21,716 nt of DNA from a virus: positions 1 to 21,716 of IMG/VR virus record IMGVR_UViG_3300024999_000446; one strand, written 5' to 3'. Positions 7,683-12,662 of the stretch are shown here, in pieces. Position 1 is the first letter of the stretch. Every line of letters begins with the position of its first letter. Below the pieces are notes generated by a model that made no database searches, was not told the origin of the DNA, and saw only the letters and a program-made list of their open reading frames with translations. The position numbers and the translations under genes are program-made.

Positions 7683-8042
7683 TTACTGCTCAATAAGATC
7701 AAATTTAAAATCTTTCCAATACCATACACCCTCTGTACGAAAACGTTTACGTGTAATATCTCCTACATACATAGTTTTGAGACGGGCCACCCCATCATCG
7801 TCATTATATTCCACGGTGAAGAACATATCCGTCCCGTATATGATGTTTTTTATTAGTACCAGTTCTGCTCCGGATATAACATTATACACAAGAAGTAGTT
7901 TTACCTTCTTGGCAATAAGATCCAACCTCATAGTGGCATCAGCTGTACGACTAGCTTTGGTTACATTGTACTCTTGAATATCACAATCAGATGGGGGTTT
8001 GATAGCAATGCCGTTAATGCGAATATTCATTCCTTCCGTCAT
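7683..8042 (-). CDS. Distal tail-type protein, DUF6711-like
   Basis: This 119-residue protein begins NIRINGIAIKPPSDCDIQEYNVTKASRTADATMRLDLIAKKVKLLL and ends with a strand-rich half (DMFFTVEYNDDDGVARLKTMYVGDITRKRFR...WYWKDFKFDLIEQ). Start motif (ING-IxxPS), RxDxIAxK-KL core, FFxVxYxD and the MYVGD strand fit the phage family DUF6711, found between tape measure and hub genes. It probably forms a ring at the tail tip linking tube to hub. The ATG at 8042 shares a base with the tape-measure stop (TAATG), so its translation is likely coupled; AAGGGGGG lies seven bases upstream. The family name is recalled, not searched. Confidence 0.6.
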   Translation of the reverse strand: MTEGMNIRINGIAIKPPSDCDIQEYNVTKASRTADATMRLDLIAKKVKLLLVYNVISGAELVLIKNIIYGTDMFFTVEYNDDDGVARLKTMYVGDITRKRFRTEGVWYWKDFKFDLIEQ

Positions 8043-11000
8043 TAACTTACCCCCCTTACTTGTTCGTTGAGTCTCACGGAACGCAACCTACGTTCCAATT
8101 CCGTGTAACTTCGCGTATCTCCAATCAACATTCCCACCTGTAGGACAATCTCACCTTTATTCGCACCAGCTCCCAAGATATCTAACCGCTGCACAATAGC
8201 ATCTGCCAAAGCATTAGCTATAGTGGTAGCACCACCCCCACTAAGAGGAACAACCCCTTCTGGGCGATTGGCTTCGGATACCCGCACAATCTGATCACGA
8301 GTAACTACTCCGCCACGAGCCAGGTGGGCTATGGGCGGCACGTAGGGAACCCCGATGGTTCCACCGCCATACACGGACCCATTCGGCATCGTTATAGAAG
8401 GTGTTTCAAATGATAATTTGTTCCACAAGCCAGTGAATTTGTTGATAAGATCGATAACACTGTTAATAGAGCCTTTAATCACTTGCCCAATACCATCCCA
8501 CTTCGCTTTTGCCGCAACCTTTAAGCTGTCCCAAACGTCCGAAATGCGATCTTTGATGCCCTGCCACTTATCTACTACCACTGTCTTAGTCTTGTCAATC
8601 TCCGATGCAGCAGCAGTCTTTACATTTGTGAAAGTAGTAACTACTGTTAACAGTAACACGGCAAAAGCCCCAGCCGCTAATTCTGCGGGTAAGAGCATAA
8701 AGGCTAAAACAATTGCAGCAACTGTTGCTACTACAATAGCTACAGTTTTTACTTGCCCACTTGCGAAAAAATCTGTTATATCTTCCCAGGTATCACTAAC
8801 TCTCTTCTTCATATCCACTTTCCACTGTTCCACGATCTTGCCTAGTGAGGCTGCCCATCCTGCTACTATGTCTATACCATCGGTAACCCACATGGCTAGT
8901 TCTGCTTGTGTGTCTGCCGACCAATCACTAATAGACTTAAGTGCCCCGGCTAGAGCGAGTCCTAAAACAACTCCTAGATTTAATCCCCAATCACTTATGG
9001 ATTTTACTCCATCAATAGTCCATTGTCCTAGTATTGCTCCAGTCTGTGTAGCCCAACCACTGATAGGTTTGACCCCGTTAACCCACCAACCATCCAACAA
9101 CGTGTTAAAATCATTTGCCCAGCCTTGTACCGTCTGTGTACCGGTTTGACGCCAACCCTCAAGAATTCTACCCGCTTCACCTACCCAATCTTCTAAAAGT
9201 CGTCTGGCTTTCTCTAATACGGGTGCTGGATCTGTGTCCATGTCGGGCAATCTCGGTATTATGGGAGGGGGTATAATGGGTACAGGAAAATGCAATACAG
9301 GTAGCGTGGGTATAATAGGAAGAATAGGGGGTGGTAAAATTGGAGGAGGTAGTGTTATGGGACTTGTGCTTCCTGTTGGAGGGATATCCACATGAGGAAT
9401 TGTAATATCAGGTAAATTTGGAACCTTGATGTCGGGTATCTTTAAACCGCCGCCTCCGCCGTCACCGTTGGGATCCTCGATTTGGAACACTTCATCAAAA
9501 GCTAGGATGTTATCCTGCACTTTTTTACCTGCTTTTTCTGCTGAATCACCAAACTCGTCCCAAGCATCTCCACCTTCAATAATCTTCTCATTGAAGATAT
9601 CTTGTTGCCCCAGTGTAGCATCATCGGTTAACGCAAATGAATCACCATTCATTCCCATAAGTCCCATCATCTGCTTCATTACACGATCTAACCAAGCACT
9701 TACAGTAGCTGAGGACATTGCCAAACCTAATAAAGCCGCCGAAATAAGCATGATAACAGCTGTAACAGGATTCTTGGTCATAGCAATATATAAAACAGAT
9801 ATCGTTTTACTGAGTAACATAACTGCTCCTGCTACGGCTTTAGCAATCCCTAAAACTCTGATGGCCCATGACAGATGCAGAATCATAGCCGTTGCCGCCC
9901 CGGCACTCATTAAGGCAAGAATAGCCATACCTAAATACTTGACCCCAGGAACACTATGTGATGCCCAATAGGCCAGTCTGGAGATTGCATTAGTTACTGA
10001 AGCAACAACGGGTAAAAGTAATGCCAATCCGCGAAATATGAATTCATTCAAGGCACTGGCCGCTGGGCCAAAAGCTGCCACCAAACGTTTTACGTTATTA
10101 GTAATATTACCGATACTGGTAAATACAATACGTGCAGTGGCCTGCAATTTTGGAGGAAACAGGGCATCTATGATTCCTCCTGTCCCGAACTTCCTACCTT
10201 CCATACGCACACGCTCAAGACCATCAGCAACTTTCGTTACAAAAGCGTTATATGAGGCCATAGGAGTCTTAAGAAGGTCCCGACTGATAAATAATAGATT
10301 GTCTTTAATAGTGCTAACTAAACCTAGAGTAGTTTTCTGAATTGCATCTGCTGCCCCACCATAACGTTTTTCGATACCCGTCATCAGAGCCGCTAGAGCC
10401 ACTTCTCCGGGAATTGCTTGTTTTCCTATATTTTGTATCTGCTCTGCGGTAAGACCTAACTCTTCTTGCAGTATCTTATTTGCAGGAATACCTGCTAGAA
10501 TCAATTCCCTTATCTCTCTGGCAGATGTCTTACTGGAGTTCTTAATTTGTCCTAAAGTGATAGTCATGCGCGAAAGTAGTAAAGGATCCTGATTACCACT
10601 CAAGGCCATAACGTCAGCCAAACTACGTAAAACAGGTATTACATTCTTTGCTTCAAAACCCATAGCCTGTAAACGTCTGGCACCTCTAGTAGCATCTTCC
10701 ATACTGAAGGGAGTCTTAGCCGCAAAATCTTCCATGGCCCCAATAAATTGTGTGGATTTTTGGGCACTGCCCATCATAAATTCAAATGATACAGCCGCTT
10801 GCTCCATCATTAAGCTGAAATGTACTACCTCGTCAGTAGCTTCACGTATTGATCTGATCAAACCGTAAAAAGCTTGAGAGATGAGAATACCTGTGATGAT
10901 TCTACTAATGTCTTTCATATAACCGGAAACATTTTGACTCATTCTTCTTGCTGCCCGATCAGTTTCACTTAAAGCTGCTTGGGGCCCAGTACCAAATGAA

Positions 11001-11116
11001 CTAGACATCGCACTACCGGCATTTCGTGACGCTGTTACTGCTACATTTAGTCCCGCAGAAAATTGGGTAGTACGAAGGGAGAGATCTGCAAATAAGTCAG
11101 CAACATGACCACTCAT
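8042..11116 (-). CDS. Tail tape measure protein
   Basis: This 1024-residue protein sets tail length and passes into the cell during DNA entry; at about 1.5 Å per residue it suggests a tail near 150 nm (inference). Residues about 95-280 match the tape-measure N-terminal domain (MEQAAVSFEFMMG, AAKTPFSMEDATRGARRLQAMGF, REIRELILAGIPANKILQEELG, ALMTGIEKRYGG). Hydrophobic segments fill about 345-475 and 783-825. Residues about 549-629 are very proline-rich (LPPPILPPPILPIIP) after a GGGGG stretch, and about 642-775 carry Trp repeats at about 11-residue spacing (QGWANDFNTLLDGWW, GWATQTGAILGQW). The C-terminus (from about 905) has the GxGxxGVPYVPPIAHLARGGVVTRDQ pattern common in Firmicutes tape measures. 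ATG at 11116 follows GAAGGGAGGG. The chaperone pair directly upstream is the standard arrangement. Confidence 0.93.
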   Translation of the reverse strand: MSGHVADLFADLSLRTTQFSAGLNVAVTASRNAGSAMSSSFGTGPQAALSETDRAARRMSQNVSGYMKDISRIITGILISQAFYGLIRSIREATDEVVHFSLMMEQAAVSFEFMMGSAQKSTQFIGAMEDFAAKTPFSMEDATRGARRLQAMGFEAKNVIPVLRSLADVMALSGNQDPLLLSRMTITLGQIKNSSKTSAREIRELILAGIPANKILQEELGLTAEQIQNIGKQAIPGEVALAALMTGIEKRYGGAADAIQKTTLGLVSTIKDNLLFISRDLLKTPMASYNAFVTKVADGLERVRMEGRKFGTGGIIDALFPPKLQATARIVFTSIGNITNNVKRLVAAFGPAASALNEFIFRGLALLLPVVASVTNAISRLAYWASHSVPGVKYLGMAILALMSAGAATAMILHLSWAIRVLGIAKAVAGAVMLLSKTISVLYIAMTKNPVTAVIMLISAALLGLAMSSATVSAWLDRVMKQMMGLMGMNGDSFALTDDATLGQQDIFNEKIIEGGDAWDEFGDSAEKAGKKVQDNILAFDEVFQIEDPNGDGGGGGLKIPDIKVPNLPDITIPHVDIPPTGSTSPITLPPPILPPPILPIIPTLPVLHFPVPIIPPPIIPRLPDMDTDPAPVLEKARRLLEDWVGEAGRILEGWRQTGTQTVQGWANDFNTLLDGWWVNGVKPISGWATQTGAILGQWTIDGVKSISDWGLNLGVVLGLALAGALKSISDWSADTQAELAMWVTDGIDIVAGWAASLGKIVEQWKVDMKKRVSDTWEDITDFFASGQVKTVAIVVATVAAIVLAFMLLPAELAAGAFAVLLLTVVTTFTNVKTAAASEIDKTKTVVVDKWQGIKDRISDVWDSLKVAAKAKWDGIGQVIKGSINSVIDLINKFTGLWNKLSFETPSITMPNGSVYGGGTIGVPYVPPIAHLARGGVVTRDQIVRVSEANRPEGVVPLSGGGATTIANALADAIVQRLDILGAGANKGEIVLQVGMLIGDTRSYTELERRLRSVRLNEQVRGVS

Positions 11117-11132: not shown

Positions 11133-11336
11133 CTAAAATAGCACTTGATCAATAAAGTGTTGCACTTTTTTGGGTTGCACTTTCTCCTTATCAGGATTAT
11201 TTACCTCCCCATGAATCTTGGTTAAAACACTCAACTTTCGTGGGGTGCAATTCCAAAACTCTGTATCGGATAAGTGCAGAACGACTTTTCCCATGTAGTA
11301 TAAATAGGACCAATCCCAGCCGTCATCAATAGGCAT
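11133..11336 (-). CDS. Tail assembly chaperone T-segment, expected as a -1 frameshift extension
   Basis: This 67-residue reading frame (MPIDDGWDWSYLYYMGKVVLHLSDTEFWNCTPRKL...) has the usual position and features of the second tail chaperone part (gpT of lambda): WSY, YYMGK, and an S-x-x-EFW-x-x-TPRKL motif that typically contacts the tape measure. Its own ATG at 11336 has no ribosome site in the 20 bases upstream. The same frame stays open back through the end of the upstream gene, across a GGGAAAC heptamer at 11363-11369. The functional product is therefore probably the fusion listed at 11133-11719, with 76 residues from this frame added after Asn119. An independent 67-residue protein is possible but less likely. 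Confidence 0.75.
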   Translation of the reverse strand: MPIDDGWDWSYLYYMGKVVLHLSDTEFWNCTPRKLSVLTKIHGEVNNPDKEKVQPKKVQHFIDQVLF

Positions 11337-11719
11337 CTTATCTTCTATTGTGACGGCGTCTAGTTTCCCTCCAGAGCTCCCGACACTTGGGCGACAGATA
11401 TCGTTGTGACATCTTCAGCTGCTGGCAAAGCTCCAGTCATTGCTTCGGTGAGACTTGCGGACAATTCGGCCAGATCGCTTATTCCAATCATTGCGCCTAC
11501 TTGTTTTTCTGTAAGAGTTTCTTCTTCATGGATTAATCCACACCATAATAATGTTCTGATACCTTTAATGGTACCACTTTGTAACACTTGCATAGCTTTA
11601 TCTACAGAACCATAACGTTCCTCTAGCTCAGCAAAAGAATTCAAGTCGAACTTGAGAGTACGCGGTTTATCCAATTCAACCCGCACACCTTTATTTCTTA
11701 CGGATGCCACATTACTCAT
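11133..11719 (-). CDS. Predicted G-T fusion chaperone made by -1 ribosomal frameshifting
   Basis: Slippage at G GGA AAC (11363-11369) would join the 119-residue upstream chaperone to the downstream frame, giving ...ALEGN-LDAVTIEDKMPIDDGWDW... and a 195-residue protein. The two frames are offset by exactly -1, the slippery site directly precedes the zero-frame TAG (11360-11362), and a stem-loop begins five bases later. In lambda and most siphophages the minor G-T fusion bridges tube protein and tape measure during tail assembly. This entry is a prediction from sequence signals. The fusion should be the minor product, a few percent in known cases. Confidence 0.82.
11319..11369 (-). promoter_or_regulatory. 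-1 programmed frameshift signal: GGGAAAC slippery site plus stem-loop
   Basis: The minus strand reads G GGA AAC TAG in the chaperone frame, the X XXY YYZ form of a -1 slippery heptamer (11363-11369); lambda uses GGGAAAG. After a five-base spacer (TAGAC) comes GCCGTCA (11351-11357) pairing with TGACGGC (11319-11325). Inside that, AATAG (11345-11349) pairs with CTATT (11328-11332), separated by a 1x2 internal loop and enclosing a 12-base loop. Both tRNAs can re-pair in the -1 frame (GGG, AAA). The hairpin loop contains the second gene's ATG. Confidence 0.88.
11360..11719 (-). CDS. Tail assembly chaperone, G-segment
   Basis: This 119-residue soluble protein has the hallmarks of the first siphophage tail chaperone: a beta N-terminus (VRVELDKPRTLKFDLNSFAELEERYGSVDKAMQVLQSG), a helical middle with IRTLLWCGLIHEEETLTEKQVGAMIG, and a flexible Ala/Ser-rich end. 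The LKFDLNSFAELEERYGS segment followed by R-x-L-L-W-x-G-L is characteristic of this group. It lies between tube and tape measure genes, where such chaperones keep the tape measure soluble and recruit tube subunits. The ATG at 11719 follows GAAGGGATG at a rather long spacing (about 13 bases), which could temper its expression. The last codons contain the frameshift site. Upstream are the hairpin and C11 tract. Confidence 0.85.
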   Translation of the reverse strand: MSNVASVRNKGVRVELDKPRTLKFDLNSFAELEERYGSVDKAMQVLQSGTIKGIRTLLWCGLIHEEETLTEKQVGAMIGISDLAELSASLTEAMTGALPAAEDVTTISVAQVSGALEGN

Positions 11720-11750: not shown

Positions 11751-11784
11751 GGGGGGGGGGGACTGCTTAACATATTAAGCAGTC
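11751..11784 (-). promoter_or_regulatory. Perfect 10-bp hairpin followed by an 11-base C tract
   Basis: GACTGCTTAA (11761-11770) and TTAAGCAGTC (11775-11784) are perfect inverted repeats around a four-base loop. On the coding (minus) strand the hairpin contains the tube-protein stop codon and runs straight into a run of 11 C (11751-11761 read as G on plus). It has a terminator-like stem but C instead of U, so full termination is unlikely. It may stabilise the abundant tube mRNA at its 3' end or reduce read-through to the chaperones. The homopolymer is prone to slippage and its length may vary. Confidence 0.5.
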
Positions 11785-12662
11785 GTGAAGGAAACCAGTT
11801 TAGCCGTAGCCAAGTGATTACCCGCCCTATCTTGTATACTGGAAGAGGCAGCTGCCCAATATTTGGATGCAGCAGATAGGTTAACAGTAGGATCAAACGT
11901 CACTTGCGTGTAGGCCGCGTTAACAGTAAGAGCACCCGCTACAGCAGAATTATCTGCATCCTTGAATACAAAGAAATTATCAGAATTCACGGAGGAAGGT
12001 AATATGGCCTCATCGAAATTCCAAACCATATTACTCGTCACTGCTACTCCAACTGCGGCGTTAACGGGCACTGTAGTAGCTATAGTAGGCGGTGTAGTAT
12101 CTGCAGTACCCTCGACGGCACTAAACCAAGCAGTTCCCATAGAAGCTACATAATCCGCGGCATCCTCATCAGTGGTCTTTTGCCACAAGTCATCTCCATC
12201 ACGCTTAACGAAGTTTCCCTTGATGGAGGGTGTTTGAAAGGCCAACTTGTCAGATTTTGTAGCCCCTTTTTGCTCAGGAGCTGCAAATTTACCTTTCACA
12301 AGCCACACAAAACGATATTTACCATTAGATTTTAGTGATTGGAATCCAATGGCCACCCAAGGAGGTACATCAGAACTCTTGCGCAGTAATACCCCACCCA
12401 CAATGGCGTGTCCCAACAAAACCCCCTGCACCTCAAGGGGCAAATCTGCCACTGTTAAGTCTAAAGTAATCTGCCCTAATGTGGATGCTGTTTCCATGGG
12501 GCCATCATCCGCAAACAATGTCTCATTAGATGCATTGGGATTAATATCTGCCGTAATAACCCCAGGAATAGCAACTGGGGCACTGTATGTGATTGTGCCC
12601 ACTTCATCACTAGTTAGTAAGGCGTAGTGTAAATTGTTTAAACCAATAGTAACGCCGTCCAT
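11775..12662 (-). CDS. Major tail tube protein with C-terminal Ig-like (Big_5) domain
   Basis: This 295-residue protein fits a siphophage tube protein. Residues 1-180 have the strand-rich pattern (MDGVTIGLNNLHYALLTSDEVGTITYSAPVAIPGVITADINPN, LFADDGPMETASTLGQITLDLTVADLP, VQGVLLGH, WVAIGFQSLKSNGKYRFVWLVKGKFAAPEQ) of Firmicutes tube proteins annotated as phi13-type major tail proteins. From about 186 a separate domain begins, DTTPPTIATTVPVNAAVGVAVTSNMVWNFDEAI..., which is the Big_5/SbsA Ig-like fold, ending VSFTTA. Such Ig domains decorate the outside of tubes (lambda gpV also has one, of another subtype) and may bind cell surfaces weakly. ATG at 12662 follows GGAGG at good spacing. It precedes the chaperone pair and follows the tail terminator gene. 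Confidence 0.85.
   Translation of the reverse strand: MDGVTIGLNNLHYALLTSDEVGTITYSAPVAIPGVITADINPNASNETLFADDGPMETASTLGQITLDLTVADLPLEVQGVLLGHAIVGGVLLRKSSDVPPWVAIGFQSLKSNGKYRFVWLVKGKFAAPEQKGATKSDKLAFQTPSIKGNFVKRDGDDLWQKTTDEDAADYVASMGTAWFSAVEGTADTTPPTIATTVPVNAAVGVAVTSNMVWNFDEAILPSSVNSDNFFVFKDADNSAVAGALTVNAAYTQVTFDPTVNLSAASKYWAAASSSIQDRAGNHLATAKLVSFTTA

Follow-up and report, generated by a model that had tools for sequence, protein, structure and literature searches.

The viral stretch analysed here (the window; 21,716 nucleotides) very probably makes a lambda-type G/GT tail assembly chaperone pair by programmed -1 ribosomal frameshifting. An earlier note on this DNA had proposed a lambda-type frameshift at this place, and that reading is supported by the gene order, the family matches, the -1 frame of the second gene, the heptamer, the hairpin and the conservation of the arrangement in relatives. 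All coordinates given below are positions in the window, and the chaperone pair lies on the minus strand. The zero-frame gene (11360-11719) encodes a lambda G-like protein of 119 aa, and the T-like extension in the -1 frame (11133-11363) has 76 codons plus stop. The major tail protein gene (11775-12662, minus strand; phrog_88) is located directly upstream of the pair and the tape measure protein gene (8042-11116, minus strand; TMP_3 and phrog_167) directly downstream, giving the order major tail protein, chaperone pair, tape measure that is expected of a lambda-type G/GT frameshift.

Homology to known tail chaperones, the second trait expected of such a system, is indicated by phrog and family matches. 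The product of the first gene matched phrog_2115 (tail protein; E 5.7e-24) and phrog_183 (tail chaperone; E 2e-4), and Phage_TAC_11 was matched by 10 of the 12 chaperone family members. The T-like extension matched phrog_10988 (E 4.4e-7) and Phage_TAC_6 (E 1.7e-4), the latter just under the Pfam cut-off. All Pfam TAC_11/12 and TAC_6 matches of the window proteins fall below the curated cut-offs, which counts against the frameshift reading, and no credible match came from a profile search against solved structures. The family matches of the window pair thus appear weak but consistent with tail chaperones.

The 3' end of the first gene reads GCT CTG GAG GGA AAC TAG on the minus strand. It contains, in the zero frame, the slippery heptamer G_GGA_AAC (11369-11363), which fits the X_XXY_YYZ pattern and sits near the end of the gene, as in lambda-type systems. 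The zero-frame stop TAG (11362-11360) abuts the heptamer and is part of a 5-nt spacer, TAGAC (11362-11358, stop included), that precedes a predicted hairpin. The -1 frame is open across the site; starting from CTA, it reads LDAVTIEDKMPIDDGWDW... and comprises 76 codons before its stop at 11135-11133, reaching up to the tape-measure gene. The 119 codons of the first gene and these 76 codons predict a fusion of 195 aa. The coordinates, the GGGAAAC-TAG order, the exact -1 frame open across the site and the 195-residue fusion that the earlier note had described were all confirmed on the sequence. The window contains 27 zero-frame X_XXY_YYZ heptamers (6706 codon positions in 23 genes), and only the one at 11369-11363 abuts or is within five codons of its stop. 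It is also the only one that opens a -1 frame of 76 codons, the next best being 56. Readthrough of the stop was considered and rejected, given that the zero frame encounters another TAG after four sense codons and that the T region is read in -1.

Folding predicts that the sequence following the spacer (11357-11319, minus strand) forms a stimulatory hairpin of 7 bp, a 1-nt bulge, 6 bp and a 12-nt loop (GCCGUCA-CAAUAG, loop AAGAUAAGAUGC, CUAUUG-A-UGACGGC), and a similar stem is present in the relative L002. The two-part stem proposed before keeps its 7 bp and its 12-base loop; its 1x2 internal loop and 5 bp are redrawn as a single bulged A and 6 bp, because the C and G placed in the internal loop can pair. 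The 73-nt stretch holding the hairpin has a minimum free energy of -21.7 kcal/mol (z = -3.24 against dinucleotide shuffles). Furthermore, when the -1-frame protein was kept constant and synonymous codons were redrawn, the hairpin of the window had a z of -4.45 and none of 200 redraws was equally stable.

Scans of IMG/VR identified an identical contig, a 60% relative and, in the widest scan, about 80 loci in total. Frames were counted over the 69 non-identical loci in which the second gene could be recognised, and clustering at 85% on the nucleotide level gave 56 clusters. tblastn searches of genome contigs with the chaperone alone and with a four-sequence alignment found no relative, and a scan with the T region alone returned nothing but the identical contig. 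The arrangement is conserved in the relatives, as expected of a lambda-type system: the second gene is in the -1 frame in 67 of the 69 loci and in +1 in 2. L035/L010 are one base short just after the stop of the first gene, which places the second gene in +1. L035, which is on one contig with L003/L010, was considered as a -2/+1 case and rejected, since near-identical relatives have an extra base after the TAA and are -1; the missing base is an apparent single-base deletion, either a sequencing error or a broken copy.

Among the 56 clusters, the heptamer is AAAAAAC in 18, CCCAAAC in 18, GGGAAAC in 7 and another sequence in 7, and 6 have none; a heptamer of the type X_XXA_AAC is kept in 43. The AAC at the slip site does not reflect codon usage, because the same genes favour AAT over AAC for asparagine elsewhere (124 versus 56 codons). 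The near-exclusive use of A_AAC heptamers in this phage family seems mildly unusual. The stop follows the heptamer at a distance of 0 codons in 12 clusters and of 1 codon in 24, a total of 36 of 56. The GGGAAAC-stop-short spacer-stem layout of the window recurs in L049 and L087, and the closest distinct relative, L002/L026, has kept the GGGAAAC and the stem CCGUCA...UGACGG, with its stop five codons later. An abutting stop is thus common and not required, as is also indicated by one-codon spacing being the commoner one; the position that the earlier note gave to the stop stands, with the qualification that the family can do without an abutting stop. In a GC-rich clade (L028, L030, L038 and L048) the second gene is also in the -1 frame, there is no X_XXY_YYZ heptamer, and the first genes end in GAC CCT NNN stop, which suggests that this clade may use a different slip site. 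These few relatives without a canonical heptamer count against the frameshift reading, as do the sub-cut-off Pfam matches and the low efficiency of G_GG.A_AA.C in E. coli.

The structural signal is also found across the relatives. In the 65 nt past the heptamer the mean z was -2.6 (49 clusters), versus -0.4 in control segments 100 nt upstream and downstream. With the -1-frame protein fixed and synonymous codons redrawn, the mean z was -2.06 (Wilcoxon p 1e-11, a value that is only indicative, because the clusters share ancestry and are not phylogenetically independent, so that p-values overstate the evidence). Since the structure persists with the -1-frame protein fixed, the signal is not a by-product of the protein.

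Based on this, we infer the following course of events. For most ribosomes translation would end at the TAG, with release of the 119-aa chaperone. A minority of ribosomes, delayed by the incoming hairpin at a moment when GGA and AAC are paired, would move back one base onto GGG and AAA and resume at CTA to make the fusion of 195 aa. If the analogy with lambda applies, the tape measure protein may be coated by the short form, and the long form, which is the rare one, may recruit the major tail protein. Lambda needs the two products at about 30:1 (PMC5009743), and a low frameshift rate would fit such a need. Both G_GG.A_AA.C and A_AA.A_AA.C have low efficiency in E. coli, which may not be the host of this phage, and IS elements very likely make use of both (PMC4066793). 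The junction peptide would be informative about the moment of slippage: EGNLDAVTIEDK would mean slippage after AAC decoding, and EGKLDAV slippage before it.

It seems very improbable to us that the downstream frame is a separate gene whose translation reinitiates, past the TAG, at an ATG of its own (11336). This ATG is in frame and 23 nt past the stop, and L002, the nearest distinct relative, also has one there; however, the ATG of the window lies in the loop of the hairpin, and no Shine-Dalgarno sequence was found before it (ACAATAGAAGATAAG-ATG), in agreement with the earlier claim that it lacks a ribosome site. By contrast, the start of the tape-measure gene has a clear one (GAAGGGAGGGATAAGAA-ATG). 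Moreover, in 40 of 50 relatives the stretch from the last in-frame stop to the conserved WDW motif has no ATG, GTG or TTG, so that these relatives lack an ordinary start codon from which the second gene could be translated by itself. The second frame of the window is thus -1 and lacks initiation signals of its own, as expected of a lambda-type pair. A change of frame by slippage of the RNA polymerase rather than the ribosome is conceivable in those relatives that have A7 runs at the site, but GGGAAAC has no run longer than three, the C_CCA_AAC relatives likewise, and the hairpin past the site in most relatives fits ribosomes; we regard this explanation as scarcely credible.

A variant of ribosomal frameshifting gives the abutting stop a mechanistic role: ribosomes awaiting a release factor would slip while their E and P sites are occupied by the heptamer codons, and the efficiency of termination would set the yield of the fusion. 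The clustering of stops 0 or 1 codon past the heptamer in 35 of the 49 -1-frame clusters, compared with only 2% in which the subsequent zero-frame stop is within one codon, speaks in its favour, as does the low activity in E. coli of the heptamers with which this clustering goes together (PMC4066793). Yet a stop one codon later (24 clusters) is commoner than an abutting one (11), and at that distance the heptamer is no longer in the E and P sites with the stop in the A site. In addition, the stop of L002 comes five codons later, and stops near the slip site could merely trim a functionless tail. We therefore consider a direct role of the abutting stop unlikely, and similarly doubtful is the broader idea that the family is fixed on weak A_AAC heptamers with a stop within 0-1 codon and that competition with termination (release factor) helps to set the chaperone ratio.

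Programmed -1 frameshifting at G_GGA_AAC would make this site, with strong comparative support, a further case of the known lambda trick and not a new principle. The lambda gpG/gpGT frameshift (Levin 1993; Xu, Hendrix and Duda 2004, as cited in PMC5009743) has in common with the window the position before the tape measure gene, an X_XXY_YYZ heptamer late in the first gene as the site of the -1 shift and, presumably, a fusion that is the minor product. The likeness described here is one of layout. The heptamer of lambda is GGGAAAG, whereas that of the window ends in AAC and is abutted by the stop. The GGGAAAC-TAG-hairpin layout that had been singled out as noteworthy is real and not new: in gp18/gp19 of Burkholderia phage KL1, GGGAAAC is located immediately upstream of a TGA and is followed by a predicted stem-loop (PMC3483164). 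Here too the comparison is one of layout; KL1 uses TGA instead of TAG and has a further tail gene before the tape measure. Homologous genes of the Paenibacillus phages LincolnB and Bob (MH454081, OP503972) are annotated as a joined CDS for a tail assembly protein or chaperone. They share with the window a first gene of 37-38% identity, a joined second part in -1, the gene order, a heptamer near the stop and a hairpin, and differ in that their heptamer is AAAAAAC, one codon before the stop. Caulobacter phage Colossus (PMC3556154) and archaeal virus HCTV-1 (PMC5009743) use GGGAAAC at the same place in the same kind of gene pair, and are compared with the window in these two features.

The window is a well-supported uncultured addition to a classic case of recoding, and its family displays two measurable regularities, the X_XXA_AAC heptamers and the stop 0-1 codon later, that could help gene callers to annotate the fusion. 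The preference for a heptamer with weak activity in E. coli also calls for an explanation; infrequent slippage would be suitable where the chaperone has to outnumber its fusion.

Two observations concern the region upstream of the pair. The major tail protein (11775-12662) has a bacterial Ig-like domain, Big_5, at its C-terminus (E 1e-20). Between the gene of this protein and the chaperone gene, the plus strand has 11 consecutive G (11751-11761), a tract that may be sensitive to sequencing or prone to slippage.
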